Below, piece by piece: positions 3,001-49,238 of a DNA stretch of 49,975 bases. How positions within the stretch are numbered: the stretch's first letter is position 1; each line of letters starts with the position of its first letter. This stretch comes from Candidatus Bathycorpusculum termitum (GTDB lineage: Archaea > Thermoproteota > Bathyarchaeia > Bathyarchaeales > Bathycorpusculaceae). The DNA is taken from assembly GCA_031254875.1 (NCBI GenBank), contig JAIRTW010000022.1, positions 1 through 49,975 of the forward strand, given 5' to 3'. Under the pieces are notes generated by a model. The model did not search any database and was not told where the DNA came from. It worked only from the letters and a program-made list of their open reading frames with translations. A program made the translations under genes and the position numbers.

Positions 3001-6000
3001 TTCCATGGGGAACCAGAGAAAATATTAGTAGATGCATTATAATTCTCATACCACAGAGGAATTATGTAATTTTCGGGGTAGGTGCCGATTTCTGAGAGGT
3101 TCGGAGCTACAATGGTACCGTTTTCCACCGTTCCAGTCCATTCAACTTCGTATGCGCTACTGGGATCTAAACTGATAATCTTGAAAGTCACACTAAATTC
3201 AACAAAATCAGGACCATCCGGATAACTTATATCATAATTATTATAACCCTGGGTTAAGGGGCTGGTCCACTGGTTGGTAAAGATATGTGTTGCATAAACA
3301 GCATCATCAGCCGCAAGTCTGATGGTAGCGCGAGAGGCACGGTTACCTGAAAAGAGGGTTTGGTTACTACCCGCCCCAGCAGAGTCGATATTTAAATTAG
3401 CCAAGTTAGCACGAGCAATCCAAATACCACCCCCATCACCATTAAGAGCCGAATTATTGGTAATAGTTGCATTGCGGATATCAAGTGGTCCTGCACCATT
3501 TTGGTATATACCACCACCATCACCATTGAGGGCTGTGTTGCCTGAAATTGAGCCACCCACCAAACTAAAACTACCAGAGTTTATGTATATGCCACCCCCA
3601 TCGCCAGCGGTGTTGTTGTGGATGGTTGTCATGTTGCTTGCTTCAAAAACCCCATAGAGATTGTATACACCCCCGCCGAGGGTATTGGCCGTGTTGTTGG
3701 AAATTGCGCCACCAGATACAATAAATCGGTCGGCATTGTACACACCGCCGCCCTCATAATCGGCCCTATTGTTAGAAATTATACCATCGTGCATAGTAAA
3801 GGTACTATCGAAATCATTGAGCACCCCGCCGCCAGCCTCTGCGCTGTTGCCCGAAATTGCGCCACTTAACAAGCTAAAATTGCCCCCCAAGTTATCTACG
3901 CCGCCGCCCCATCTAGCGGTGTTGTTAGAAATTTGGCCGTTATACAAACTAAAGTTAGCAAGGTTGGTCACACCACCGCCACGCCAGGCTGTATTGCCAA
4001 AAAGTGCACCATCAAACATACTAAAAAGGGCATTGTTGACTACCCCGCCGCCAAACTCAGCACTGTTACCCGAAATCTCGCCGCCAACCAAATTAAAACT
4101 GCCTGCGAGATTGTACACGCCGCCGCCAAAATGTCCACCACCATTGCCGTCACCAGCAGTGTTATTGGATATTGTGCCTCCCAACATAGTGGAATTGCCC
4201 AAGTTGACCACGCCGCCGCCAGTTGCGGTAGCAATATTGTTTGAAATTGTGCCATCAAACATCGTAAAATTGCCATTGTTGCGCACGCCGCCGCCAAGGC
4301 CATTAGAGCTTGTGCCGATAGCGATGTTGTTTGCAATTGTGCCATCAAACATCGTAAAATTGCCGCTGTTTTGTACACCGCCGCCGATGGCAGCAAAATT
4401 GTCCAAAATCTCACCACGCCTATACAGGGCAAAGTTACCGCTATCTATGAACACCCCGCCCCCCGTAGAGCGGGCGGTGTTGTTAGCAATCACACCACCC
4501 AACAAATCAAAGTAGCTGTTACTGTTAGTGTTGTATACGCCCCCGCCATGGTTAGCAGTATTGTTAGAAATCGCACCATCAGTTACAGTAAGGTTGCCGT
4601 TATTGTACACGCCACCACCATTGCCAGTGACAGCGTTGTTTAAGATTGTACCATCAGACATTGTAAAAGTTTCTCTATTGTGTACGCCGCCGCCAGATTC
4701 AGCGGTATTACTCGAGATCACACCCCCAGACAAACTAAAACTGCCCCTATTGTATACGCCACCGCCCTCGCCAGAGGCACTCATAACGGTGTTGTTTGAA
4801 ATCTCACCCCCAGACATAGTAAAGTTGCTACCGATGTTGTATACGCCTCCTCCACCACTGTTAGCGGTGTTGCCCAAAATCTCACCACCCAACAAATTCA
4901 AGCGGCCGCTATTACCAGTGTTGTATATACCACCGCCGTTTGTAGTAGCGTTATTGTTTAAAATTTCCCCCTCAAATATAGTAAAACTGCCCCGGTCATT
5001 GTATATACCGCCGCCAAACCGGGCTGTGTTACCCGAGATTACACCCCCAGACAAAGTAAAACTGCCAAAACGAGTCCATACGCCGCCGCCATTGGTGGCT
5101 GTGTTGTTTGAAATCTCGCCAGCCAACAAATCAAAACTGCCATAGTCGTTGTATATGCCGCCGCCATTATGGGCAGTGTTACCCGAGATTACACCCCCAG
5201 ACAAAGTAAAACTGCCATCATTGTTCACACCACCGCCACCACCCACAGCAGTATTGTTTAAAATTGCTCCATCAGACATAGTAAAGTCGCTATCGCCGGT
5301 GTTGTATACGCCGCCACCCCAACCATATCCATCATCATTCCAGCCAGCGGTGTTGCCCAAAATCATACCACCCAACAAACTAAAGCTACCGCCATCGCTG
5401 TTGTATACACCGCCGCCATACTCACTAGCGGTGTTGTTTGAAATCTCACCATCCAATAAACTAAAGCTACCGCTGTTGTGTACGCCGCCGCCATACCCAT
5501 AAACGGTGTTGTTTGAAATCTCACCACCTGACAAACTAAAGCTACCGCTACCAGTGTTATGTACGCCGCCGCCAAAATCAGCACTATTGCCCCAGATCAC
5601 CCCACCACTCATTTCAAACGTACCGCTATTGTACACACCGCCACCGTAAGCGTTACTGACGCCGCTGGCGGTGTTGTTGCGGATTGTGCCGCTACTCAGG
5701 TTAAGCTGGCTACCGCTGTCAATATAAATCGCGCCGCCACTTGCTGCCTTAGAATACTGAATAACCGCATCCACAAGTGTAACATTAGTATTTGCACCGC
5801 TTATGTTAACACCGCCGCCATTAGGCCCACTGGAGATAACCGCCCGGCCGCTCAGTATTACCTTGCTGTCTGCAAAAGTGAGAACAACATTACCGCCGCC
5901 AGAGATGCTAAAGTGACGGAAATTTCCACTAGTGGTAAGAGTGACATCGGCACCAGACAAGCTGTGATAGGTAAGATCTCGGACAGTGGAAATATTTAGC

Positions 6001-9000
6001 GTCTGTGTTAAACTAAGGTTATTTTTAACTAAAATATCGACAAACGGATCAGATTCAGAATGCAAACTTACCCCATGGTTAATCGTACGCACCGCTGAAT
6101 TATTATCAAACGCCACATTATCAAACGCATACAACACCATCATCCAACTATATCCAGATATATCTGTGGTGAAATTCCAAGGCGACCCAGAGAACGTATT
6201 AGTAAGCACATTATAGTCGGTGTACCAAACCGGCGCATTATAACAGGCGGGGTAGCCACCTGTTCCAGAGGGGTTTAGAGGTTCAGGCTGCACAATTCTA
6301 TCATCCACCACTGTACCTTCCCACGCAGTCTCATAGGCTCCACTGGGATCTAAACTAATAATTTTAAAGGTCACGCTAAAATCGGTAAAATTGGTACCTT
6401 GGGGATAGTTAATGTCATAGTTGTTGTATCCCTGCGGCAACGGAGCACTCCACAGATTCGTAAAGATACGTGACGCGTAGAGTGCGTCGTCGGCGGGTAT
6501 GCGGTTTGTTGCTTTTGAAGCATTGTTGCCTGAAAAGATAGTTTGATTAGGGCTAGCGACCGAATCAACAAACAAATTACCCAAATTACTTATCCAGATG
6601 CCGCCGCCATCTCCATTGGGCGCACCATTATTGTTCAGGTTGACGTTGCGGATATAGAGAGGAGTTGGGCTGTTGGAGTATATACCACCGCCATTTAGGG
6701 CAGCATTGTTGTTGGCGATTGTACCGCCCGATAAACTAAGGCTACCATTGGCGCCGGTATTGTATATACCGCCCCCAAGGCCCCCAGCAACATTAGTACT
6801 GGCCGCGATGTTGTTGATTATGATGCTATCAGTTAGAGTGAGGTTACCTTGACTGTTATATATACCTCCGCCAAAACCCGTAGTGGCAGTGGTTCCGCGG
6901 ACAGTATTGTTAGATATAACCCCACCAACTATCCACAGATTAGCTGTAGTGTCGGTGTTGGCTATGCCTCCGCCTTGGTTGGTTGCGGTGTTTTGGGTTA
7001 GGGTGGTGTTTGTTTGAGTAAAATTGATACCTCCAACACCACCTTGGTTGTATATACCCCCACCCTGACTTGTAGCAGAATTATTAGCTATGAGGGTGTT
7101 TGTTTGAATAAAGGTTATACCCCCGCTGCTACCGACAACGGTGCCACCGGTATTGTATATGCCGCCACCTTGACTGGTAGCAGTGTTGTTAGCTAGGGTG
7201 ATATCTGTTTGAATAAAGGTGATACCAATGCCGATGCCTTGGTTATATATGGCACCGCCTTGACTGGCAATGTTTTGCGTCATGATGGTGTTTGTTTGAG
7301 TAAAGTTGACTATACCATCAATGCCAAAACCGGTGTTGTATATACCTCCACCGCTTGGAGCTGCATTTTGCGTTATAAGGGTATTTGTTTGGATAAAGTT
7401 GACTACACCTTCAAAACCGCCACCAGAGTTGTGTATAGCACCACCGCTCTCAGTGGCAGTGTTGTTAGCTAGGATAGTTCCGGTTTGGACAAAGTTAACT
7501 GAGCCACCAATACTACCGGTATTGTATATACCCCCGCCTTGGCTAGCGGTGTTGTTTGCTATGGTGACGTTTGTTTGGATAAAGTTGACGGCCCTGCTAC
7601 TGCCGGAGTTGTATATGCCACCGCCAAAGCCGCTAAAACCGCTAGCGGTGTTTTGGGTTATGAGGGTGTTTATTTGAGTAAAGTTGACTATACCAGCACC
7701 ACCGCCAATGTTGTATATACCTCCGCCTCGACTGGCGGTGTTTTGGGTTATGAGGGTGTTTATTTGAGTAAAGTTGACACCCCCAGCGCCAGCACCAGCA
7801 CCGTTGGATATGCCTCCACCATAGTTAGTGGCGGTGTTGTTGGCTATGGTGGTATCTGTTTGGATAAAGTTGACTATACCCCCGCCTGAGCCGGAGCCGC
7901 CGCTGTTGGCTATGGCGCCGCCGTTTTCAGTGGCGGTGTTTTGTGTTAGGGTGGTGTTTGTTTGGATAAAGTTGACTGTACCACTAACGCCACCGTTGCC
8001 GCCGCTATTGTATATGCCGCCGCCTTGGCTGGCGGTGTTTTGGGTTATGAGAGTATTTGTTTGAGTAAAGTTGACTGTGCCGCCGCCTCCGCCGGTGTTG
8101 TAGATGCCTCCGCCAAGGGTGACACGCAGACCGGTGGTTGTGGCGGTGGCGGTGTTGTTGGCTATGATGCCGCCGTTCATGGTAACGGTGGCATTGCCGA
8201 TGGTGGCTATGCCGCCGCCATAGACGGAACTGGTTCCGGTGGATTGAGTGGCTATGGCAGTATTGTTACTTATAGTAGCGGTGCCGCTTAACTCAAAGAC
8301 ACCACTATTGTATATACCGCCACCATAAACATTATTGGGACTACTAGCAGTATTGCCAAAAACCAACCCATCAAACATGCGAAGTACCCCACCTGAGTTG
8401 TATATGCCACCGCCGTAACCATTGGTAACGACATTATTAGAAATTGTACCACCAGATAAACTAAAGCAACCGTTGCTGCCGGTATTGTATACACCGCCGC
8501 CATTGGTGCGTGCAGTATTGTGGGAAAGCTCTCCACCAGATACAGTAACGTTGCCGCCATTGTTGTATATGCCCCCGCCAGCACCATCAGAGCCAGTGCC
8601 AGTGGCGCTGTTGTTAGAAATCAGGCCGACAACTAGGCCAAAGTTAGAGGTGCTACCTGTATTGAACACTCCCGCGCCATTGGCAGCGGTGCTGTTAGTG
8701 ATTATCCCGCCAGATACCGTCAAATTCCCATTACTATTATACACCCCTCCACCATTAGAAGAGGCAGTGTTGTTAGAGATTACCCCGCCAGATACCGTCA
8801 AATTCCCATTATCTGCATTATACACGCCCCCGCCATTAGCAGCTATATTACCCCAAATCAAACCTGTCCCAGCTAAACTAAAGCTTCCAAACGGACTAAA
8901 TATACCCCCAAGATTATACACGCCTCCGCCGTATGCTACGGCTTTATTGGTTAAAATTGTACCATTAATCATGGTAAAATGACCGGTATTGAATACGCCC

Positions 9001-10763
9001 CCGCCGCCGTAGGAGGGATGGTTGGCAGTGTTGTTAGAAATTTCACCGCCAATTAAGTTAAAAACGCCTCCGCTATTAAACACCCCTCCGCCATTAGAAG
9101 AGGCAGTGTTGTTAGAGATTATGCCTCCAGACAAGCTAAAAGTTGTGCTGCTAAAGATGTACACTCCGCCACCGGCGGTGGCTCTGTTGTTTATAATTGT
9201 GCCCTCAGACATGGTGAAACTACCCCCAAGGATGCATACGCCGCCTCCGGAATCATTAGATGTATTGTTAGAAATTATGCCCCCCGACAAGCTAAAAGTG
9301 CCGCCAGTGTTGTAGATGCCACCTCCATAACCAACATTGGCGATATTGTGAGAGATGGCTCCCCCAGACATAGTAAAACTACCCCGATTGTTCACGCCGC
9401 CGCCATGGGATGCAGTATTAGTTGAAATTGCGCCTCCTGACATAGTAAAGCTACATCCGCTGTCAAGATAGGCGCCTCCGCCATTTGTGGCTGTGTTGTT
9501 AGAAATTTCGCCGCCAACCAAATGAAAAACGCCGTTGTTAACATACACTCCGCCCCCGCTATATGCTGCTTCTCCCCAGGAGGCTATGTTAGCTGAGATT
9601 TTACCGCCGGACATATTAAAGTAAGCATTGCCGGTTAGGTATACGCCGCCGCCATTGCATCTAGCAATGTTGGTTAAAATTGCACCGTTGCCAGACAAGT
9701 TAAAGGTGTTGCTGGATCCGGTGTTGTATACGCCGCCGCCGTCTTGGTTGGCTGTGTTGTTTGAAACTGTTCCAGCAGACAGGGTAAAGGCACCGCCGGT
9801 GTTGTATATGCCGCCGCCATAGTTGGCGGTGTTGTTTGAAACTGCGCCGTTAGTTAGGGTTAGGTTTCCGTTGGTGTTGTATATGCCTCCGCCAAGGCCA
9901 AAGCCGGTGCCGTTGGCGGTGTTGTTAAAAATTGTGCCTCCAGATGCTTGCATGTTGCCGTTGTCTAGGTATACGCCGCCGCCGTTTTTTGCGGTGTTGT
10001 TAGAAATTAGGCCGCCAGATAAATTGAAGCGGTTGGTATTGCCAACAGAGTACACTCCGCCGCCAATGCCATTAAGGGCTGTGTTGTTGTTGATTGTGCC
10101 GCTAAACATATTGAATTCATTATAAAAATTTCGTATGCCGCCGCCATTGTTTGCGGCTGTGTTGTTGGAAATTACACCCCCGAGCATGTAAAAGGTGCCT
10201 TCATTGTTCACGCCTCCACCATCGATAAAAGCGTGATTGCCAGAAATCGTACCCCCAAGCATCATGAAGATGGCATTGTTAACGTTAAACACTCCACCGC
10301 CCTCATTGCCGTTAAGTATGTTGCCAGAAATCGAACCATTAGTCAAAGTTAGCATACCGCTATTTAGTACGCCTCGGCCATAGGTGCCGGCGGCATGGGT
10401 TACAATGATGCCGTCAAGGGTTAGGGTGCCAAAATTTTGAATGGTATTTAGATTGTTTGGGCCGATGAGTTTCCAGGGTCCGCCAGCGTTGTTTGTTAGG
10501 GTGATAGTTTTGTCAGGGGGAATGAAGGTGGTGTTGGTGAGTTGGATATTTGTTGTGAGGGCGATGATTGTGGGTTCGGCGGCGTTGTTAATGGCGTCTC
10601 TGAGTTCGTTTTCATTGCTAACGGGTATGGGGCCTGCGGCATTTACGGTTAATAGGCAGGCAAATAGGGAAGCCAGTAATACTGTAAATAGTAAAGAGAC
10701 AATCAGTATTTTTTTATGGAGGCTGTGGAGTTTGAGGGCAGGTTTTTTAGGGTTATTTTCCAT
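1..10763 (-). CDS. Giant secreted adhesin-like protein with PMP-type beta-helix repeats (C-terminus beyond left edge)
   Basis: The reading frame is open from the ATG at 10763 to the left edge, at least 3,587 codons; I checked the frame at the start, at three internal linkers and at the edge. Residues 1-43 form a signal peptide: a Lys-rich start, a hydrophobic core at about 18-41, then VNA-A. Three arrays of short repeats follow (about residues 117-1375, 1634-2430 and 2694-3308) with recurring NNTA and GGGVYN/GGGIYN, the pattern of Chlamydia PMP-type repeats and archaeal adhesin-like proteins predicted to fold as parallel beta-helices. Each array ends in a related linker containing QGYNNYDI. 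The first two linkers also carry VTFKIISLDPS and later YHSL and GNFRHF. After the third linker come InlB-type repeats (GYTFANW, GYVFVGWN). The likely role is cell-surface adhesion. A TATA box and Shine-Dalgarno support the start. The anchor is not in the window. Confidence 0.92.
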   Translation of the reverse strand, partial: MENNPKKPALKLHSLHKKILIVSLLFTVLLASLFACLLTVNAAGPIPVSNENELRDAINNAAEPTIIALTTNIQLTNTTFIPPDKTITLTNNAGGPWKLIGPNNLNTIQNFGTLTLDGIIVTHAAGTYGRGVLNSGMLTLTNGSISGNILNGNEGGGVFNVNNAIFMMLGGTISGNHAFIDGGGVNNEGTFYMLGGVISNNTAANNGGGIRNFYNEFNMFSGTINNNTALNGIGGGVYSVGNTNRFNLSGGLISNNTAKNGGGVYLDNGNMQASGGTIFNNTANGTGFGLGGGIYNTNGNLTLTNGAVSNNTANYGGGIYNTGGAFTLSAGTVSNNTANQDGGGVYNTGSSNTFNLSGNGAILTNIARCNGGGVYLTGNAYFNMSGGKISANIASWGEAAYSGGGVYVNNGVFHLVGGEISNNTATNGGGAYLDSGCSFTMSGGAISTNTASHGGGVNNRGSFTMSGGAISHNIANVGYGGGIYNTGGTFSLSGGIISNNTSNDSGGGVCILGGSFTMSEGTIINNRATAGGGVYIFSSTTFSLSGGIISNNTASSNGGGVFNSGGVFNLIGGEISNNTANHPSYGGGGVFNTGHFTMINGTILTNKAVAYGGGVYNLGGIFSPFGSFSLAGTGLIWGNIAANGGGVYNADNGNLTVSGGVISNNTASSNGGGVYNSNGNLTVSGGIITNSTAANGAGVFNTGSTSNFGLVVGLISNNSATGTGSDGAGGGIYNNGGNVTVSGGELSHNTARTNGGGVYNTGSNGCFSLSGGTISNNVVTNGYGGGIYNSGGVLRMFDGLVFGNTASSPNNVYGGGIYNSGVFELSGTATISNNTAIATQSTGTSSVYGGGIATIGNATVTMNGGIIANNTATATTTGLRVTLGGGIYNTGGGGGTVNFTQTNTLITQNTASQGGGIYNSGGNGGVSGTVNFIQTNTTLTQNTATENGGAIANSGGSGSGGGIVNFIQTDTTIANNTATNYGGGISNGAGAGAGGVNFTQINTLITQNTASRGGGIYNIGGGAGIVNFTQINTLITQNTASGFSGFGGGIYNSGSSRAVNFIQTNVTIANNTASQGGGIYNTGSIGGSVNFVQTGTILANNTATESGGAIHNSGGGFEGVVNFIQTNTLITQNAAPSGGGIYNTGFGIDGIVNFTQTNTIMTQNIASQGGAIYNQGIGIGITFIQTDITLANNTATSQGGGIYNTGGTVVGSSGGITFIQTNTLIANNSATSQGGGIYNQGGVGGINFTQTNTTLTQNTATNQGGGIANTDTTANLWIVGGVISNNTVRGTTATTGFGGGIYNSQGNLTLTDSIIINNIAASTNVAGGLGGGIYNTGANGSLSLSGGTIANNNAALNGGGIYSNSPTPLYIRNVNLNNNGAPNGDGGGIWISNLGNLFVDSVASPNQTIFSGNNASKATNRIPADDALYASRIFTNLWSAPLPQGYNNYDINYPQGTNFTDFSVTFKIISLDPSGAYETAWEGTVVDDRIVQPEPLNPSGTGGYPACYNAPVWYTDYNVLTNTFSGSPWNFTTDISGYSWMMVLYAFDNVAFDNNSAVRTINHGVSLHSESDPFVDILVKNNLSLTQTLNISTVRDLTYHSLSGADVTLTTSGNFRHFSISGGGNVVLTFADSKVILSGRAVISSGPNGGGVNISGANTNVTLVDAVIQYSKAASGGAIYIDSGSQLNLSSGTIRNNTASGVSNAYGGGVYNSGTFEMSGGVIWGNSADFGGGVHNTGSGSFSLSGGEISNNTVYGYGGGVHNSGSFSLLDGEISNNTASEYGGGVYNSDGGSFSLLGGMILGNTAGWNDDGYGWGGGVYNTGDSDFTMSDGAILNNTAVGGGGGVNNDGSFTLSGGVISGNTAHNGGGIYNDYGSFDLLAGEISNNTATNGGGVWTRFGSFTLSGGVISGNTARFGGGIYNDRGSFTIFEGEILNNNATTNGGGIYNTGNSGRLNLLGGEILGNTANSGGGGVYNIGSNFTMSGGEISNNTVMSASGEGGGVYNRGSFSLSGGVISSNTAESGGGVHNRETFTMSDGTILNNAVTGNGGGVYNNGNLTVTDGAISNNTANHGGGVYNTNSNSYFDLLGGVIANNTARSTGGGVFIDSGNFALYRRGEILDNFAAIGGGVQNSGNFTMFDGTIANNIAIGTSSNGLGGGVRNNGNFTMFDGTISNNIATATGGGVVNLGNSTMLGGTISNNTAGDGNGGGHFGGGVYNLAGSFNLVGGEISGNSAEFGGGVVNNALFSMFDGALFGNTAWRGGGVTNLANFSLYNGQISNNTARWGGGVDNLGGNFSLLSGAISGNSAEAGGGVLNDFDSTFTMHDGIISNNRADYEGGGVYNADRFIVSGGAISNNTANTLGGGVYNLYGVFEASNMTTIHNNTAGDGGGIYINSGSFSLVGGSISGNTALNGDGGGIYQNGAGPLDIRNATITNNSALNGDGGGIWIARANLANLNIDSAGAGSNQTLFSGNRASRATIRLAADDAVYATHIFTNQWTSPLTQGYNNYDISYPDGPDFVEFSVTFKIISLDPSSAYEVEWTGTVENGTIVAPNLSEIGTYPENYIIPLWYENYNASTNIFSGSPWNFNTDISLFNGELVLYAFDNVVFDNPSAVRTFNHGVILNTAYAPFEDILIKNDIPLLQTLTITASRTLTYHSLPGTEVTLTTNGNFRHFTISGGSSTLTFADSKIILSGQATTPTGPFGGGITITGTSTNTTLNNPTIQNSRATSGGGISNEGSLTLNNATITNNTATNGGGIYNNDATISGYTPDNITITLTDTIIAHNTATTNGGGIYNQGYNSPTNFNNVTITITNTTITHNTARAGGGIHNRGSDGSLGSFNFTLINTAITYNTATDTSTGQGGGMILGGGNRALSNFTLINTTIAHNTAAGQGGGIYSSTNNGDTNLIQINTTITNNTARTSGGGIYIYGGSGLMYNGAFNLTQINTTITNNIANSGDGGGIITTASSPIASKGITITQINATITNNTANNGNGGGLSGFGYYFNLTQIDTIIAHNTATGGGGGIYADGNITQINTTITHNTANGQGGGMYTGSGNITQINTTITHNTATGNGGGIYTYVGYSGGLSFTQTNTIIAHNTARTGDGGGIYTYAQSRVIINFTQTNVTIANNTAQNGGALYNSGGYANATAYFTITDSTLTNNQATQNGGAIHNSGSTIGNANITITDSTIANNTAQNGGALYNTGTYNGNAYLTITDSTLTNNQATQNGGVIYNTGDYVGYPSRGGNAYLTITDSTLTNNQATQNGGVIYNTGTNAYLTINDNIITNNQATQNGGALYQNAPTRLNITNSTLTGNQAPNGDGGGIWISYTNLPNLYIDTQGAPSQSFFANNTASRATDRRPGDDTLYYTHIFTDHWTHPFIQGYNNYDIAYTGGPPFTLYNVTVHNSYATTTGTGTYQAGESVTVDAGAQLGYTFANWTLNQGGITLPNDPITNFTMPLSNVTITANWQANTYNIIYDSNSGTGTMQNTPVTFNTNVTLSANEFSREGYVFVGWNTQANGLGTIFVDGVAFNFTYTDDLTLYAMWFPLGGVVKVISSGSSAFALGESVVYAISYTLPSNVSAIESF
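840..2680 (-). repeat. Repeat array 3 of the giant adhesin, with C-rich codons
   Basis: Third in-frame array, dominated by TITNNTA, TIAHNTA and DSTLTNNQA units with GGGIYN turns. On the coding strand its codons end strongly in C or A (ACC, AAC, ATC), whereas the sequence to its left (1-430) ends mostly in T. Repeats at 940-1130 are nearly identical at DNA level, which indicates recent tandem duplication. Confidence 0.8.
3480..5860 (-). repeat. Repeat array 2 of the giant adhesin
   Basis: Second in-frame array of GGGVYN/NNTA repeats, closest to the first sub-family of array 1 (for example SFSLSGGEISNNTA units at about 5400-5560). It lies between two copies of the QGYNNYDI linker, so array plus linker looks like one duplicated super-module. 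Confidence 0.85.
6640..10410 (-). repeat. Repeat array 1 of the giant adhesin
   Basis: In-frame degenerate repeats with a period of roughly 20-45 residues, each with a Gly-Gly-Gly-(Val/Ile)-Tyr-Asn turn and an Asn-Asn-Thr-Ala strand end. The part from about 10400 to 8270 uses LSGGxISNNTA units. The part from about 8270 to 6980 switches to units containing NFIQTN or NFTQTN. Two repeat sub-families in one array suggest separate expansions. Confidence 0.85.
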
Positions 10764-42044: not shown

Positions 42045-42536
42045 ATGGCATCAGACAATACAAGGACGATGAAAAAGCAGGAAAAAGAAAAAGAAGCTTT
42101 CGCCCTAAGGTATAAGAGATGGAAACTGCGGGCAGGCTATAGATGGAGCACATTTAAACGCAATATTAATTTTGCATACATTTTGTTTTTCTTAGCAATA
42201 TTCCTTTTCGCTGCAGTAATGATTCCTAATGCCGTACACCGTCTACCGCTTCCTAGTGAAGACTGGCCTTTTGTTTTTCACCTCCAAGGCTCAGTAATTT
42301 ATTCTCTAAACGCCAGTGATCCCAACAGTTTTCAGCCAGTGTTTAATGCAAAAGTTGAAGTGGGTGGTTATCAAACATTTACTGATTCCCAAGGACATTT
42401 TTCGGTAAAATTTGTCTCAGCGAATAGAGTAGATATTCCGGTACTCATAACTTGGAATAATAATAGTAGAATAGAACGAATAACTTTCGACCAAAACCAG
42501 TTCGATAGAATTGTCTCATTCCAATTAGGTGCATGA
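42045..42536 (+). CDS. Operon gene A: single-pass membrane protein with extracellular beta-domain
   Basis: The 163-residue protein has a very basic N-terminus, one membrane segment at about residues 44-62 (YILFFLAIFLFAAVMI) and an outer domain of about 95 residues. That domain (LQGSVIYSLNA...FNAKVEVGGYQTFTDSQGHFSVKF) has the look of a carboxypeptidase-regulatory-like or other Ig-like beta-sandwich. AGGGTG lies eight bases before the ATG, and TTATAAATT at 41987-41995 is the probable TATA box. Gene B starts four bases after its stop, so it appears to be the first gene of the operon, although it could be an older neighbour. I recognise no specific family. Confidence 0.7.
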   Translation: MASDNTRTMKKQEKEKEAFALRYKRWKLRAGYRWSTFKRNINFAYILFFLAIFLFAAVMIPNAVHRLPLPSEDWPFVFHLQGSVIYSLNASDPNSFQPVFNAKVEVGGYQTFTDSQGHFSVKFVSANRVDIPVLITWNNNSRIERITFDQNQFDRIVSFQLGA

Positions 42537-42540
42537 TTTT

Positions 42541-43899
42541 ATGAAAAAAGAGGTTTGCATAATTGGTTTAGGCCCAGCAGGTTTTGGCGCGCTTAATGTA
42601 TTAGCCAAATCCAGTCTCGCGTCAGACACCATCTGTGTGGAAGTTGGAGGAAGCCTCACCGAAAGAAAATGCCAACTATCAAGAGGAAAATCTTGTTCGA
42701 ATGAAAAACCATGTGAACTAATAAGTGGTGTTGGGGGTCGTTCATACACTACCGGTGCAAAGCTTTCTGGTTACCCAGCAGGGGGCGGATTAGCGCAGAT
42801 TATTGGTTCAGCTAAAAGGACAAAAGCTGCGATAGACGAAACGCTATCAACTTTGAGCCATTTATTGCCGATAGAGGAAGAGAAAAAGGTTTTGTCACCA
42901 GAAACGTCACTTTGCTTCAAAAAAATGGGTTTTGAATACCGACATTATCCAGTCTACACGTTCAAGCAGTCCGATCTTGGTTTGGCGTACAGTAAGATTT
43001 TATCAGATGCTTCTTTGGCGGGAGTAGATATTTTACTCAAGACCAAAGTAATTGATATAATAAAAAGCGGAGAAAATTTCAAGTTATCTCTACTACAAAA
43101 ATCAAATCTTATTGAAGTTGAAGCCAAGTATGTAATATTATGTGTCGGTTCAGAAGGACAAGAACTCGTTGAATGTTTATACTCGAAATTTGATCTGCCA
43201 ACGAAAAAGTACCATTTAGATGCAGGTGTACGTGTAGAATTTCCATCAGAATTGTATCATGACATCGATAAGCACCATGGCGACTTAAAACTTTTATTTA
43301 AAAACGCAAGAACGTTCTGTATATGCAAAGAAGGTAAGATTACGCCGTATAGGTATCATAAAATCTATGCATTGGAGGGTTCGCTACAGAAAGAACAAAA
43401 AACAGGGTTTACAAATCTTGCCATTACGATAAGAAAATCACCTTCAGGAAAGAATCTATCACTTTTCAACGAAATTCTCGATAAAATGTATAAAGAAAGT
43501 GGCGGATATCCAGTTCATCAACCCCTCACTCAATATCTACATAAAACTGAGCCGGAGCGGGACAATCATTTAAAGTTGTCTTCTACGCTTAACATATGGA
43601 GGTATGGAAAAATCGACAATTGTTTTCCACAGATAGTGTCTGACGAATTAAAGGATGCTGTTCAGTTTTTTGTCACAAAACTTTTACCTAACGAGCAATG
43701 GAATCACGTTAATGTTTTTGCGCCAGAACTTGATTTTCGCCTTATATTTCCGTTGCAACAAGATTTTTCAGTTACACCCAAGTTATATATGGCAGGCGAG
43801 TGTACAGGCAGATTTCGAGGTATTCTTCAAGCGTTCTGTTCTGGCGAAATATCTGCCAATAGCATATTGACAGATCATAATGGGGGATATCAATGTTGA
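42541..43899 (+). CDS. Operon gene B: FAD-dependent oxidoreductase (COG2509-like)
   Basis: The 452-residue protein begins with a dinucleotide-binding fold: VCIIGLGPAGFGAL, with GxGxxG at residues 9-14. It ends with LYMAGECTGRFRGILQAFCSGEISANSIL, the FAD-contacting end of this class. Between them are GVGGRSYTTGAKLSGYPAGG (like the GGAGxxSDGKL loop of COG2509) and a strand YVILCVGSEG. A cluster of Cys at 44, 52 and 58 could be redox-active or hold a metal. A GTG at 42529 is an alternative start, but AGGTG is better placed for the ATG. The last seven bases overlap gene C. The substrate is unknown; its pairing with nucleotide enzymes is unusual. Confidence 0.85.
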   Translation: MKKEVCIIGLGPAGFGALNVLAKSSLASDTICVEVGGSLTERKCQLSRGKSCSNEKPCELISGVGGRSYTTGAKLSGYPAGGGLAQIIGSAKRTKAAIDETLSTLSHLLPIEEEKKVLSPETSLCFKKMGFEYRHYPVYTFKQSDLGLAYSKILSDASLAGVDILLKTKVIDIIKSGENFKLSLLQKSNLIEVEAKYVILCVGSEGQELVECLYSKFDLPTKKYHLDAGVRVEFPSELYHDIDKHHGDLKLLFKNARTFCICKEGKITPYRYHKIYALEGSLQKEQKTGFTNLAITIRKSPSGKNLSLFNEILDKMYKESGGYPVHQPLTQYLHKTEPERDNHLKLSSTLNIWRYGKIDNCFPQIVSDELKDAVQFFVTKLLPNEQWNHVNVFAPELDFRLIFPLQQDFSVTPKLYMAGECTGRFRGILQAFCSGEISANSILTDHNGGYQC

Positions 43900-45461
43900 G
43901 TGGAGCACCAAAAGGGCGGTATATTTGTGACGCTCTCTACGGGATTATTTATTTTCCGGAATTTGTCTGGGAAGTAATACCAACAATCGAACTTCAAAGA
44001 CTAAGAGAAGTACGCCTTTGCAATATCAATTCGTTTTGTTTAACAGGCGGAGCAAACATAAATCGTTATGAACACGCTATTGGTACTTGTTATTTGGCTC
44101 TAGAATGCCTCAAAAGTTGGCCCGCCCTAAATCCTATCACCGAAGATGAACGCCGGCAACTTGCAATAGCAGCACTTTTACACGATACGTTGAATGCACC
44201 CCTTGGTCACTCTATACAGTACACTGAATCTAAGGATGGGTATGAACCAGAAAAACATTTTAAAGGAGCAATTACAGAAGGGCATGCAGAGCAATACTAT
44301 TATCGTCAAGCGCAACTGGAACCTATTTTTTTTGGAATGAACGGAAATCTTATTGAAAAAATTTCGAAAAATGATTTTTTGCCGATTAACAATATTATAT
44401 CTGGAAAAGGACGTTTGGGGCCTCTCATAAATGGAACAATTGACTTAGATAACATCGATAACGTCTATAGATTTGCTTACCATCTTGGAATAGTGCGATC
44501 AGGTAAGAATGCCTTAGAGTTAGCTAAATCACTATTTATCGAAAGTGGCAAATTAACGGTTAAGCAAAATGCTGTTCCTTTGTTAAGAGAATGGTTTGAT
44601 GTTAGACGAAAACTCTATTCATTTTTACTTTTGAACCCTGAAGAGTTCAGTGCAAAGTGCATGTTAGAAGAGGCATTTCAGTTTGCTAAAAGTCAAAGGG
44701 TTACGTATAGTTGGCATGATACAGATTATGCGTTTCTCACAGAACTTAACAAATTGCCTTCTGCGAGAGAAATCGTGCGAGAGTTCTTGTTCAGTATTAA
44801 CAACGATTTAAGCAAGAGCATAACCAAACAGGCGTTAAATGATGACATTTCTGAGGCGTTTAAGCGTAAAGATTATTGTCTTTCACCTAAAGTAAAAATT
44901 GAAGATATTGATAATGGTTGGAAATTGACAGATAAAACTAAAGAGTACTTGATAGAAAATGTGGGTGACGCGTTTAATGTGTTCAAACTTGTACCACGAC
45001 CTTTTGAAATTTCCACTACCGTAAGAAGATTAATGGCTGGTGATCTTTATGGATGCATCGGCATTTTTTCTTCAAGCAAAATTGAAGAGCGTTCAAGGTT
45101 TAAAGATGTAATGACCAAAAGAGCCATAGAAAATCGGGCCAGTGAAATTGTAAGGGCGTTAAAGGGTCGATTTGGTACGGCAACCGTGATTTTTCACCTA
45201 ATTGAAGATATAAATAAAACGCAACGTAAAATTGACATTCGCACAGATCAGGGGAACATAATAGAAATAGGCAAACCATTAAACCGCCTTTTAATCGGCG
45301 CTTTTTTCCGCAATCAACAATTGTCTATGTATAGTCTTCCAAACTCAGACGAAATGGGAAAAATTAGAAGTCACATACACAAATACTTATCAAGTATATT
45401 GACAGACCAAGGGTTAACTGCAATTTCACTATATGAGGAGGCGGTAATGTATACAGAGTAA
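43893..45461 (+). CDS. Operon gene C: HD-domain phosphohydrolase (SAMHD1/dGTPase-like)
   Basis: HD proteins of this branch split dNTPs into nucleoside and triphosphate. Visible metal ligands are H61 in NRYEHAIG, H97-D98 in ALLHDTLNAPLGHS and an Asp in IDLDNIDNVYR (about 183-193), which lines up with IDVDKWDYFAR of SAMHD1-type enzymes. The early QRLREVRLCNINSFCLTGGA also fits this class. The other 300 residues are less typical and may hold an allosteric or nucleic-acid-binding part. It starts within the end of gene B after GGGGGAT and its own end contains the likely binding site of gene D (AGGAGG, 45436-45441). dNTP-depleting enzymes of this type are known antiviral effectors. Confidence 0.88.
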   Translation: MLSGAPKGRYICDALYGIIYFPEFVWEVIPTIELQRLREVRLCNINSFCLTGGANINRYEHAIGTCYLALECLKSWPALNPITEDERRQLAIAALLHDTLNAPLGHSIQYTESKDGYEPEKHFKGAITEGHAEQYYYRQAQLEPIFFGMNGNLIEKISKNDFLPINNIISGKGRLGPLINGTIDLDNIDNVYRFAYHLGIVRSGKNALELAKSLFIESGKLTVKQNAVPLLREWFDVRRKLYSFLLLNPEEFSAKCMLEEAFQFAKSQRVTYSWHDTDYAFLTELNKLPSAREIVREFLFSINNDLSKSITKQALNDDISEAFKRKDYCLSPKVKIEDIDNGWKLTDKTKEYLIENVGDAFNVFKLVPRPFEISTTVRRLMAGDLYGCIGIFSSSKIEERSRFKDVMTKRAIENRASEIVRALKGRFGTATVIFHLIEDINKTQRKIDIRTDQGNIIEIGKPLNRLLIGAFFRNQQLSMYSLPNSDEMGKIRSHIHKYLSSILTDQGLTAISLYEEAVMYTE

Positions 45462-46734
45462 ACTCAGTTTAGCGAATGATTTCAACAATGTTGAATGTGC
45501 ACTTGATAAGATAGACTGGGGTTTTACTTCTATTAGAACATATGAAAATCAAGGGTTGTATCCATTTGATTGCCGTAAACATCATTGGTATCCAGCAACA
45601 TTTATTCCAGCTATTCCATTTACACTTATAGAAATTTTAACTCAGCCCCAAGCAACCATTTATGACCCATTTTCGGGAATTGGAACAACTTATTTCCAAG
45701 CCTTATTACTCAGCCGCAAACCGTTTGCCACTGAAAACTGCACGGTTGCCGCAGAATTTACGAAATCGATGTTCTTATTATTCGATCCTGGATTAGACCA
45801 TTTAACTGTTGCTAACGAAATTTGTCGTGAAACTGAGAATTTTGATTCTCAGAAAATATATCCGGACGAGATACGTAAAACCAGTGACTTTACGGTTCTG
45901 ATAGATGAGCTTTCGTACTGGTATACTCCCAATGTTTTGAATAAGCTGGCCTATCTTTTCCTTCTGGAAAAAAAAGAGAAGGATATGTATAAAAAGGCGG
46001 CAATGCGCATAACCATTTCTGCGATATTGAGAACAACCTGTTGTCAAGATCGAGGTTGGGGTTGTATCGCAGATAACATGAAACCAAACGAAGCGCAAAA
46101 AAAAGATGCCGATAATGTAGATGCAATCAGAATATTTCAGAATCATGTTAAAAGGCTATTAAGCGATGTAGGTAACCATCTAAAGTTTGTATCTGATGAC
46201 TACAGAGTGGTTTACAAAGAAGTTACAAGCAAAAAAACAATTTTTCAAGCTGATAATCGCGATTTTAATGAAATAGCTGATAATTCAATTGATTTGGTGG
46301 TAACATCGCCTACTTATCCTAACATGACGGATTATGTTAAATCACAACGGCTTTCGTATTATTGGTTAGGTCTTAGTTTAACAAAGGATAATGCCGATGG
46401 TCTCAGGGAAATTGGTGCACGCAGAAAACGGGGAATGAAAGATTCAATTTCTAACTATGTTGATGACATGAAGAAAACGAATGAAAAACTCGCTAGAACG
46501 GTCTCTGAAGGCGGTTATGTTTGTTTTGTGTTGCCTGAGTTCGGCAATTTTAATCAAAATGATGTGGAAAGAAAAGGATCCATTCAGCAGGTAATTAGCA
46601 ATTTTAGCACTCTTCTTTCCAAAGAAAAAGAGATTGAACGAATAGTTCCTGCAGGCAGGAAATCTCATAACATTAAATGGGCAACTCTTGAAAAAGAAAA
46701 AATTTACATATTTAGAAAAAATAAGAAGGTATAA
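45451..46734 (+). CDS. Operon gene D: DNA methyltransferase-like protein with anomalous start
   Basis: The S-adenosylmethionine motif DPFSGIGTT and the preceding WGFTSIRTYENQGLYPFDCR...WYPATFIPAIP match methyltransferases with an HPYPAKFIP lead-in. The catalytic motif reads TSPTYPN instead of TSPPY, followed by DYVKSQRLSYYWLGL, as in that family. The order, motif I then about 200 residues then motif IV, is kept. The conserved lead-in lies upstream of the first usual start (TTG at 45556), yet no ATG, GTG or TTG opens this frame. The strong AGGAGG serves an ATG at 45447 that stops after MYTE; one extra base separates it from this frame. An ATA at 45451 is the only near-start. A frameshift, an assembly error or an unusual start is needed. 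Confidence 0.8.
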   Translation: MQSKLSLANDFNNVECALDKIDWGFTSIRTYENQGLYPFDCRKHHWYPATFIPAIPFTLIEILTQPQATIYDPFSGIGTTYFQALLLSRKPFATENCTVAAEFTKSMFLLFDPGLDHLTVANEICRETENFDSQKIYPDEIRKTSDFTVLIDELSYWYTPNVLNKLAYLFLLEKKEKDMYKKAAMRITISAILRTTCCQDRGWGCIADNMKPNEAQKKDADNVDAIRIFQNHVKRLLSDVGNHLKFVSDDYRVVYKEVTSKKTIFQADNRDFNEIADNSIDLVVTSPTYPNMTDYVKSQRLSYYWLGLSLTKDNADGLREIGARRKRGMKDSISNYVDDMKKTNEKLARTVSEGGYVCFVLPEFGNFNQNDVERKGSIQQVISNFSTLLSKEKEIERIVPAGRKSHNIKWATLEKEKIYIFRKNKKV

Positions 46735-46736
46735 AG

Positions 46737-47885
46737 TTGGACTATAAAGGACTTGTAATTACCGGAACAAGTGGTTCAGGGAAAAGCACACTTGCTAGAC
46801 ACTTAACAGATACAACTGACTCATTCCAAATAGTTAAACCAGTCACAACTCGAAGTAAACGTGATGATGACGAACCTGATTTCTATGAATACATAGACAA
46901 AAACGCCTTTCATGAACTAAAAAATGACTTACTTGTTAGTGCTACGTACAGGACTGATTTTTATGGTATAACTCGCAAAGCGTTCCAAGAAGTAATCGAC
47001 TCAAAGAAGATACCCATATTAATAATTGCGCCTTCTTCAGATGTATCCGAAGAAAACAATTTTCTTTCCTTTTTCATTGATTTGTCAGATGAGCATTTAG
47101 ATGGAAGATTGAAAACAAGGATGACAAATATAACAGAAGAGGATCGTTTGCAAAGAAAAACAGATCGCAAGCTATCGACAAAATTTACATATAGTATCCT
47201 CAACGTTGATTCAACTAAAACAGCCAATCTTATAAAAGAGTTATGGGGTAATAGAAATTCAGGTGGACTATTACCACATCACATTATCACGCACATGATA
47301 GAGTGTGGAATGCTTCTTGATAACGTTAAGAATTTTGAAAATGTTAAGAGTGCGTCTTATGACCTGACCCTTGGCGATGAGTACTACTCACGTGGCCAAA
47401 TAAGCACACTAACATCAAAAAAACCATTTATCAGAATTGACCCCTATGACTACGCTATTGTCACAAGTGCTGAAGACGCTAATTTGCCAAGCGACATTGC
47501 CGCAAAATTTGGGCTTACCGTTGGGTTATTTTGCCAGGGCGTAATTTTGTCAAATGGTCCTCAGGTGGATCCTGGATTTAGAGGAAAACTCTTCTGTCTC
47601 CTTTTCAATACTTCTAACGCACCTGTGATATTAAAACGAGGCGAACATCATGCCACAATAGAATTTAATAAACTCTTAGAACCCGCCCGTCCATATGAAG
47701 GAAAATACCAAGGGAAGAAAGAAATCATTAACTATCTTCCATCGAACACTCTCAGAGGAGCGATAAACGAATTAAAAGAAGAACTGGAAGGTGTAAAATC
47801 GGAAAGCCGAAGAATTAATGCCAACGTACTAGGGATAGTTTCGGTGTTTCTTGCAATTCTGGGAGTATTACTTACATTACGGTAG
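46737..47885 (+). CDS. Operon gene E: guanylate-kinase-like / dCTP-deaminase-like fusion with membrane anchor
   Basis: Residues 1-170 resemble guanylate kinase: P-loop GTSGSGKST (10-18), the GMP-site motif VTTRSKRDDDEPDF, then YEYI and TDFYGI. Residues 180-315 resemble the dCTP-deaminase/dUTPase fold: SYDLTLGDEYY (207-216), GPQVDPGFRG (274-283) and LLFNTSNAPVILKRGEH. By eye the catalytic Glu of E. coli Dcd corresponds to L288, and the RSS motif is missing, so this domain may sense or bind nucleotides rather than deaminate. A coiled-coil stretch (342-361) leads to a tail anchor (364-381). The start is TTG, three bases after gene D, with AAGGT upstream. AvcD-type defence proteins likewise join a P-loop domain to a deaminase, but with a different deaminase fold. 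Confidence 0.86.
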   Translation: MDYKGLVITGTSGSGKSTLARHLTDTTDSFQIVKPVTTRSKRDDDEPDFYEYIDKNAFHELKNDLLVSATYRTDFYGITRKAFQEVIDSKKIPILIIAPSSDVSEENNFLSFFIDLSDEHLDGRLKTRMTNITEEDRLQRKTDRKLSTKFTYSILNVDSTKTANLIKELWGNRNSGGLLPHHIITHMIECGMLLDNVKNFENVKSASYDLTLGDEYYSRGQISTLTSKKPFIRIDPYDYAIVTSAEDANLPSDIAAKFGLTVGLFCQGVILSNGPQVDPGFRGKLFCLLFNTSNAPVILKRGEHHATIEFNKLLEPARPYEGKYQGKKEIINYLPSNTLRGAINELKEELEGVKSESRRINANVLGIVSVFLAILGVLLTLR

Positions 47886-48010: not shown

Positions 48011-48093
48011 TATATCGGTAAAGTATTTAAATAACATCAATTACCGATATATCGGTACAGATTCATAAGAAAACATTTACCGACATACTAAGG
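48011..48093 (+). promoter_or_regulatory. Promoter and operator of the AbiEi-like gene
   Basis: A perfect palindrome TACCGATATATCGGTA (48042-48057) is flanked by half-sites TATATCGGTA (48011-48020) and TACCGA (48078-48083). A TATA box (ATTTAAAT, 48025-48032) lies between them, and AAGG (48090-48093) precedes the ATG at 48102. AbiEi antitoxins are known to repress their own promoter at inverted repeats, so these are probable operator sites. Confidence 0.6.
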
Positions 48094-48316
48094 CGAACAT
48101 CATGAAGAGCAGAGGTACACATCGTGAACGTATAATTAGAACTCTTCTAGTGGAACCAAACAGCACCCTCACAAAATACAAACTTGCTAAAAAAGCAGAA
48201 ACCTCCTTCCCATGGACACACGAATTCCTAAACAAACTCCAAACCCAAAACCTAACCAAAAACACCCAAGTCACAAACTACTCGGGACTCATCAACTACT
48301 GGCTACAAGTGAACTA

Positions 48317-48845
48317 CTCACCCCTTCCGGGGTGAGCATCCACTGATTTTAAGATCGGTTGATGTAGTCTTCGATTTTTGCACTAGTCACAACGCCAGCA
48401 GTACGAACAGCATACCCTTCAGACCATAAGTGTCCACCTCAAAGGTGTAGCTTAATCTGCGGAAACTCCAAAAACAGCAAACGCGCAAGAATTAGACTTC
48501 AAAACACAAACAATATCAGGAATACATACTTTCGGCTTAGCAGACACAAACACATGCACATGATCACCATCATGAACACGAGCAGTCAACAGCGTATATC
48601 CATGGTTTTCAGCAATCATTTTAAGTACCTCCAGCAACCTAACCTCAACTGAGCCTACCAAAACCTTGCGTCGGTATTTAGTGGCCCAGATAAGGTGGTA
48701 GTTGGCTTGGAAAGCACAAGACCGAGTCTTATCCAATCTATCACCTCCCTTATCTAATGGTAACAAAAACTACAAATAGGACACTAAATAGAACTAACGC
48801 ATTCATCCTGCCGCTACCGCGGCAGGTATTCTGCTATGCTTTTTA
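48317..48845 (-). mobile_element. IS200/IS605-family element, tnpA only, degraded (529 bases)
   Basis: The element has the expected end hairpins, CTCACCCCTTCCGGGGTGAG at 48317-48336 and CCTGCCGCTACCGCGGCAGG at 48807-48826, and a single tnpA reading leftward. Its limits are set by restoration of the host gene; they are uncertain by two bases because TA occurs at both junctions. There is no target duplication beyond that, as expected for this single-strand transposing family. The host gene was otherwise uninterrupted. The transposase is broken, so the copy cannot move by itself. Confidence 0.88.
48349..48736 (-). pseudogene. tnpA: Degraded IS200-type transposase
   Basis: TnpA of this family is a small HUH (Y1) transposase acting on single-stranded DNA. 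The HUH centre is seen in GDHVHVFV, and the catalytic Tyr in AKIEDYINRS. The sequence CAFQANYHLIWATKYRRKVL is typical. A frameshift lies between about 48472 and 48490, after LKSNSCA, and an in-frame TGA at 48439-48441 replaces the expected Trp in HL-W-GGHLW. The likely start is the TTG at 48736 after GGAGGTGAT. Confidence 0.9.
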
Positions 48846-49238
48846 TAAAAACCAAACCAGAAAAAAAGAGTACATGCACAAAAACGCCTTAGACCTAATT
48901 CAAACAAGCAAACTCCCCTATACCCTCACCACTTATCAGGCAGAAAACCTTGTCCAACACTACCTCTTCCCCACACGCATAGACCTATACATAAAAAGAG
49001 ACGACGTAACTAAATGGCATGAAGAATTAACTACTGACGGGTTAGTTGGTAAAGGCAACCTAAGACTCCTAATAGCAGATGAACATATCTTCTACGGAGC
49101 ATTTAAACGCCAAAACCTAACCGTTGTAAGCATTGCACAGTTAATTGTTGACCTGCTACAAGAAGGCGGTGTATGCATTGAAGCCGCTGAAAAACTCATA
49201 AACAAAATGGAACAACAGGCCACATGAATTAACTATAC

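Follow-up and report, generated by a model that had tools for sequence, protein, structure and literature searches.

A conserved operon of archaea and bacteria with an HD phosphohydrolase, a methyltransferase-like protein and a kinase-DCD membrane protein: a candidate nucleotide-gated conflict system

What might a cell gain from encoding, in a single run of genes, a flavoprotein, an HD phosphohydrolase, a methyltransferase-like protein and a nucleotide kinase fused to a deaminase-like membrane protein? Such a run, here called genes A to E, lies at positions 42045-47885 of a 49,975-nucleotide stretch of Candidatus Bathycorpusculum termitum (GenBank assembly GCA_031254875.1, contig JAIRTW010000022.1, positions 1 to 49,975, forward strand; hereafter the window). 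The host is archaeal, as its small-subunit rRNA best fits the archaeal model. An earlier note on this DNA had proposed either a membrane-tethered defence that depletes nucleotides or a base-modification pathway. We found that genes B to E recur in the same order in archaea and bacteria and that the deaminase-like half of E has lost its deaminase residues. Tentatively, and with somewhat less than an even chance of being right, we propose that A-E may be a conflict system that moves horizontally, is most likely directed against viruses and has a nucleotide-gated membrane output.

All five genes lie on one strand and overlap or nearly touch; B and C overlap by 7 nucleotides (nt), and D and E are 2 nt apart. 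Pfam bore out the family calls of the earlier note, namely a flavoprotein (B), an HD protein (C), a methyltransferase-like protein (D) and a kinase joined to a dCTP-deaminase-like domain (E), and both A and E carry a membrane helix. The single shared promoter that had also been assumed found no support, since a sigma-70 scan stayed at chance (18 found, 21.7 expected) with a model unsuited to an archaeon. The genes are as follows, E values being expectation values.

42045-42536, plus strand: A, an accessory gene encoding 163 amino acids (aa), with a basic N-terminus and one membrane helix (residues 43-61)
42541-43899, plus strand: B, a flavin adenine dinucleotide (FAD) oxidoreductase (Pfam Pyr_redox_2, E 3.5e-7), whose open reading frame (ORF) opens at GTG 42529
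43893-45461, plus strand: C, a SAMHD1-type HD phosphohydrolase (Pfam HD, E 3.7e-5), with a C-terminal region without an assigned role
45451-46734, plus strand: D, DNA methyltransferase-like (N6_N4_Mtase, E 2.7e-13), with motif I DPFSGIGTT and motif IV TSPTY
46737-47261, plus strand: first half of E, a guanylate-kinase-like P-loop domain (Guanylate_kin, E 1.4e-8), with Walker A and TTRxxR
47262-47885, plus strand: second half of E, of dCTP-deaminase/dUTPase fold (DCD, E 5.6e-11), with a C-terminal membrane helix (residues 363-381)

By the positive-inside rule, the domain of A that follows the helix would lie outside the cell. The helix of E falls within the last 20 residues of the protein.

A collection described as 84,980 species genomes was scanned with a two-sequence alignment of C (window and Rhizobium etli) as bait. 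The scan gave 72 stretches with one of two motifs, and 19 loci encode a relative of C, a lower bound because only relatives keeping one of these two short motifs are found. By BLASTP, B-C-D-E occurs in the same order and on the same strand in 14 of the 19 (L018-L022 and L024-L032). Two more loci are cut by contig ends (L023 with B-C and L033 with C-D-E), and in three (L034, L035 and L036) C and D stand without B and E, joined into one ORF in L035. Because C was the sole bait, its neighbours are independent evidence, and the gene order kept in 14 loci rules out a chance cluster. The earlier note had allowed that homologs of B to E might prove scattered and never together; instead, they co-occur in order across unrelated lineages.

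Archaeal loci among the 19 come from Thermoplasmatota, ANME-1/Methanophagales and Heimdallarchaeota, and bacterial ones from Spirochaetes, Actinomycetota, Thermotogae, Tenericutes, Clostridia, Hydrogenedentota, Dehalococcoidia, Armatimonadota, Pseudomonas, Litchfieldella, Bradyrhizobium, Bowmanella and further taxa. Many of the loci are metagenome bins, for which an individual assignment may be in error. The 14 complete loci span archaea plus several bacterial phyla. Not every copy need be intact, because the parts of E are two overlapping ORFs in L018 and L021, and B is short in L018 and L020. Outside the genome scan, a viral contig (L037) carries B, C, D and E. Scans of viral contigs with alignments of C, E and B gave one locus each, all on one contig, and no locus was obtained with the D alignment or with single sequences of E or B. 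Phages yielded 11 records with distant, partial HD matches, and six plasmid records, R. etli among them, had a D-like match. No B, D or E is annotated beside the HD relatives on Priestia (L046) and Natrinema (L047) plasmids, and the Pseudomonas C-D genes had no DNA match in E. coli.

Closer to the host, the operon is rare. Among 398 genomes of its phylum, E was matched over its full length at an E limit of 1e-10 in the window's genome only, and none of the 397 others had a kinase-DCD protein at this limit. Eight of the others hold short DCD-type matches (96-104 residues) in open frames of 158-205 aa, which are without the kinase because such frames are too short for both domains. There was no match to E in the 15 same-genus genomes listed. 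Of 32 genomes, 10 carry sbcD at all; inspection by eye of nine of the ten further sbcD loci in the genus revealed no A or B within 1.5 kb upstream, a comparison that shows no insertion point. Patchy presence of the operon is well supported.

Protein E gives the clearest hint of function. Among 14 E proteins 35 positions are invariant, of which 26 lie in the DCD half, including I270-Q276 (ILSNGPQ) and D278-G280. Compared with solved dCTP deaminases, three catalytic residues that we take to form the deaminase site have been replaced in 17 of 17 E rows: Glu by Leu in the window and by Leu or Met across the rows, Ser by Val or Asn, and Arg by Cys, Phe, Leu or Val. The suggestion that a deaminase depletes deoxynucleoside triphosphates (dNTPs) does not survive this loss. 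We reject depletion of dCTP by E on these residues and, because they are absent, a sensor fits E better than a dCTP-depleting enzyme. The kinase half has G10, G15, K16, T37 and R39 invariant and T38 and R42 nearly so (14 sequences). It matches guanylate kinases in the Protein Data Bank (PDB; best E 5.6e-9) and keeps Walker A and TTRxxR, the latter presumably the GMP-site signature of guanylate kinases.

Conservation is uneven along the operon. Between the window and Clostridia, identity is 62-65% in the DCD half and 28-44% in B, C, D and the kinase; between the window and L031, it is 40% in the DCD half and 17-31% in other parts. L018 and L019 are alike in B (80%), C (84%), D (86%) and the kinase (82%), but not in the DCD half (59%), and the fall lies inside E, at about residue 120-210. 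Their joint clade has support of 99-100 in the C and D trees, and in the DCD tree it gives p 0.027 in the approximately unbiased (AU) test, the group having been picked after a first tree was viewed. The DCD half has been exchanged once, in this pair. For the window itself, the C tree (support 81/73) and the D tree (88/95) give a grouping with L018-L022, the DCD tree one with Clostridia (94/93). All trees were built without L010 and L033-L036, the AU-test trees also without L023, and the D alignment without L035, where D is fused to C. Judged from sequence, the conservation pattern of the DCD half fits a receptor whose ligand is fixed, swapping of this half among groups, or a combination of the two.

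Gene A shows a related distribution. Its relatives were found by BLAST in L023 and L026-L029; in L024 and L025 they were recognised from their position and a weak alignment (16-19% identity). BLAST gave no match in L018-L022, and in L020-L022 the space before B, about 160-310 nt by the ORF list, could not hold A. A Clostridia-like DCD half is accompanied by A in the window and in five Clostridia-type loci. Our guess, from few independent events, is that A works together with the DCD-membrane half.

All rows covering the metal ligands of C retain them (21 of 21 for H61, H97 and D98, 22 of 22 for D186). These ligands form the H...HD...D set of SAMHD1/dGTPase-type HD phosphohydrolases, and C matches phosphohydrolase 2q14 and SAMHD1 structures in PDB. 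The best solved relative of B by profile is VP0956 (3nlc, E 3.4e-14), which is named uncharacterised. D matches type II methyltransferase profile PDLC03364 over residues 10-423 of 427 (E 1e-21). Its homology reaches upstream to about 45451, yet the first ATG, GTG or TTG in frame is TTG 45556, and the start of D is uncertain because no standard start codon precedes it. Motif IV reads TSPTY in the window versus TSPPY in 19 of 19 other aligned rows. The window copy of D may be impaired; alternatively, a sequencing error or an unusual start may be involved.

Mobile genes lie near several copies, including a phage integrase (L030), a resolvase (L032), a relaxase (L027), IS110 and rve transposases (L031), an IS200-type transposase (L029 and the window), a type IV secretion gene (L036) and a reverse transcriptase (L020); these neighbours were ten ORFs chosen by eye, of which nine matched, and the family scan was run without the flanks of L018, L019, L021 and L022, which are on short contigs. 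Defence genes were also seen. At L037, a type I restriction operon directly precedes the copy, with an hsdM frame that shares 4 nt with the frame of B; type I genes occur near L028, AbiEi/AbiEii near L020, a match to PDC-S09 at L018, and at L019 a fragment matching HEC-05, which we take to be a DUF262-type protein. Nine of ten neighbours chosen by eye had a PADLOC match. In the window, the defence neighbours listed by the earlier note held for sbcCD and YhcG_C (PDC-S02) but not for the AbiEi-like gene, as the ORF at 48757-49227 has no Pfam or PADLOC match. Mobility of the operon is likely and membership in defence islands only suggested, while the support for a defence role is circumstantial.

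The same region of the window has two further features. An IS200-type transposase remnant (48452-48766, PF01797) may have split a single gene into the ORF at 48757-49227 and a helix-turn-helix (HTH)-like ORF at 48102-48335. A 16-base palindrome, TACCGATATATCGGTA, lies at 48042-48057 with similar half-sites close by (by eye), and is a possible operator.

How could these proteins act together? We infer each functional step of the following scheme, defence included. The guanylate-kinase-like half of E would bind, and may phosphorylate, a (d)GMP-like or phage-modified nucleotide. The DCD half, with its strongly conserved pocket and its deaminase residues gone, would bind a nucleotide ligand, probably as a trimer; relatives of the DCD domain are trimers. 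Ligand binding would be passed to the C-terminal membrane helix, with A as a partner where present, and the membrane would be altered such that the infected cell stops growing. C would be a nucleotide phosphohydrolase setting the level of the ligand (or lowering a dNTP), and D with B may modify host DNA or a nucleotide, by which self would be told from invader. We favour a nucleotide-gated membrane output because it explains why the DCD pocket is dead yet conserved, why a kinase is fused to it, why the membrane helix is fixed, why the DCD half has been exchanged and why R. etli has a nucleosidase-family gene.

That gene belongs to a variant locus. On R. etli plasmid pA (L010), an apparently broken B, C, D and a lone kinase without the DCD-membrane half are found, and a 611-aa ORF with a PNP_UDP_1 (nucleosidase-family) domain lies just upstream of the broken B. 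The loci with C and D only have other partners. Beside C and D, L034 encodes an AIR-synthase-like protein and one of 406 aa whose C-terminal part has hydrophobic helices. In L035 (880-8423), an HD-methyltransferase fusion (820-aa ORF) stands beside AIR-synthase-like, PAPS-reductase-like, HNH and 455-aa proteins. In L036 (6959-13708, Bowmanella), C and D adjoin a carbamoyltransferase-ASCH fusion, with the type IV secretion gene just upstream and a 367-aa protein that has one weak helix near its C-terminus. A membrane output common to the variants is not established, because the helix of the 455-aa protein in L035 appears, at the cut-off used, only near the N-terminal end.

Several points weigh against a nucleotide-gated membrane output. 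B and D are explained only by a guess at self-marking. The DCD half of E keeps D278, presumably the Asp used by dUTPases, and judged from its residues may retain hydrolase activity. Four DCD-family control rows from the same archaeal phylum (those of eight loci, L002-L009, that passed the filter) are also without the Glu, yet keep RSS..R or RTT..R; because of these rows loss of Glu alone is unremarkable, and what is special is loss of all three residues. Only in comparisons of distant groups does the DCD half rank first in conservation. Inside L018-L022 and inside the Pseudomonadota it is surpassed by C, as between L020 and L022 (DCD half 58%, C and D 71-74%) and between L030 and L031 (38% versus 47% in C). 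For the window's shift in the DCD tree, AU tests reach significance neither in D (p 0.22) nor in DCD (0.155) and barely in C (0.047), and the L018 and L019 test was chosen after the fact. A follows the DCD type less clearly in L026, where A is present and DCD placement is ambiguous, and in L023, where A is present without E. The R. etli locus may be decaying because B looks broken, and the three loci with C and D only have biosynthetic-looking partners that fit base modification equally well. Finally, among 20 further flanking ORFs only three were in PADLOC, at least one of them doubtfully: a reverse transcriptase, a 133-aa ORF matching MTase_II and an ORF matching DpdF that was read as a topoisomerase. 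These 20 were mostly the nearest ORFs outside the eye-picked set (L027 935-3034 is not the nearest), so that the best matches had been removed beforehand. We dropped the idea of proven defence-island membership and claim no enrichment, given 3 of 20 flanking ORFs versus 9 of 10 eye-picked ones.

Two alternatives appear rather unlikely to us, in equal measure. In one, C hydrolyses dNTPs on infection, like dGTPase-type defence proteins, and E tethers the complex to the membrane with the DCD half only sensing. The metal ligands kept in C and its matches to SAMHD1 and a phosphohydrolase in PDB agree with this, but at the positions of His210 and His233 (in what we take to be SAMHD1 numbering) the former is not His in C and the latter is variable, by eye. 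The missing deaminase residues of E also tell against it, and B and D are left unexplained. An HD dNTPase does act in defence in the Clover system, according to the available text of a preprint (PMC12265719). In the other alternative, D methylates and B oxidises a base, the kinase and the HD protein handle the nucleotide pool, E ties the pathway to the membrane, and any defence would come through the mark. The nearly full-length fit of D to a type II methyltransferase profile favours it, as do the AIR-synthase-like, PAPS-reductase-like and carbamoyltransferase-ASCH proteins beside other C and D pairs; the conserved membrane helix and the accessory membrane protein are not expected from it, however, and we found no described gene set with these members in the open-licence literature searched.

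It is less probable still that A-E is cargo serving the mobile element and not the host, through anti-restriction, superinfection exclusion or addiction. Integrase, resolvase, relaxase, insertion sequence and type IV secretion genes near L027, L029-L032 and L036, and the copy on a contig called viral that directly follows a type I restriction operon, are in its favour, but the idea by itself gives no mechanism. The least probable reading is that A-E serves accessory metabolism, in nucleotide salvage or detoxification, with no part in conflict: its core families are nucleotide- or redox-related, and the lower conservation of the DCD half within groups and the looser association of A suit this, but the operon is rare, patchy and near mobile genes, E lacks the deaminase residues, and the host has another SAMHD1-like protein (L040), with a fuller HD motif.

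Is the gene set new? The earlier note knew of no named system with these members, and this held: A, B and C had no match in PADLOC-DB 2.0.0 at E <= 0.05, D matched only MTase_II models among the best 25 of 30, and E gave six matches, all weak, led by VakA (E 4e-4). Parts of the set, but no system, are named in PADLOC, NCBIfam, PHROGs and Pfam. Defensive dCTP deaminases and dGTPases exist as single-gene systems. They resemble A-E in having DCD-fold and HD-fold proteins, but E is without the deaminase residues and carries a membrane helix, and A-E is a multi-gene set. Such enzymes are named in the available part of PMC11084316. Clover (CloA dNTPase and CloB nucleotidyltransferase), as far as the accessible text goes (PMC12265719), likewise places an HD-fold phosphohydrolase in a multi-gene, nucleotide-steered anti-phage system; A-E differs in lacking a nucleotidyltransferase family (Pfam, E <= 0.05), in its other conserved genes and in the membrane helices.

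A precedent for the kinase step of E is DndF of DndFGH, for which a P-loop nucleotide-kinase domain has been proposed as a phage-nucleotide sensor in the portion available of PMC10853773. What the two share is the notion that a conflict system senses through a nucleotide-kinase-like domain; the kinase of E is guanylate-kinase-like, and by Pfam no HerA/FtsK ATPase, HTH or restriction endonuclease family is present among A-E. D resembles type II methyltransferases in its match to PDLC03364, but A-E differs from type II restriction-modification in that no restriction endonuclease family was found (Pfam, E <= 0.05); the HD protein C may have a nuclease role. DefensePredictor predicts dUTPase, purine phosphorylase and nucleotide kinase domains in defence; these are the same kinds of domains, but the A-E set is not named in the accessible part of the paper (PMC13092281). 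Nor is it mentioned in the parts available of PMC12839542, PMC11090510 and PMC11084316, and the terms sought for the gene set had no match in the available text of PMC7159879. No description of A-E was found by title or start of abstract in the open-licence literature. A DCD domain paired with EVE, in the title of a reference cited in the available part of PMC11090510, was set aside as presumably a different domain. We file A-E as new because no known system tested shares the core set, the comparison covering PADLOC-DB 2.0.0, NCBIfam, PHROGs and Pfam.

Some loosely related gene sets were also noted. B-like flavoproteins at L012, L013 and L014 belong to other gene sets. In L012 (4766-8156, Rhizobium plasmid), the flavoprotein lies between an NTP_transf_5 nucleotidyltransferase and a thymidylate-kinase-like protein, another flavoprotein-kinase pair, and in L013 (5018-10454, Kitasatospora plasmid) it is accompanied by a nucleotidyltransferase and two radical SAM proteins. 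DCD-type proteins related to the second half of E adjoin a 'putative DNA base hypermodification protein' in L017 (5923-7820, Rhizobium) and lie near a uracil-DNA glycosylase in L011 (4499-6654, Rhizobium). Elsewhere in the window, positions 1053-9894 contain tandem repeats that are imperfect and for the most part 75-150 bases long; they may belong to a repeat-rich surface protein.

Taken more broadly, and as a slightly more doubtful proposal than the conflict system itself, the operon may represent an immune system common to archaea and bacteria, in which a dead deaminase would serve as a membrane-anchored nucleotide receptor with a fused kinase, under the control of an HD phosphohydrolase together with a flavoprotein and a DNA methyltransferase, and in which the HD-methyltransferase core may serve other outputs too, such as the nucleosidase-family protein of R. 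etli or the membrane-helix protein of L034 and perhaps L036. The conserved HD-methyltransferase core with its changing partners offers a handle for finding further members and for asking which signal the core makes or removes. If this is an immune system, it would provide a novel route from a nucleotide signal to an effect at the membrane, through a receptor derived from a nucleotide enzyme and common to archaea and bacteria.

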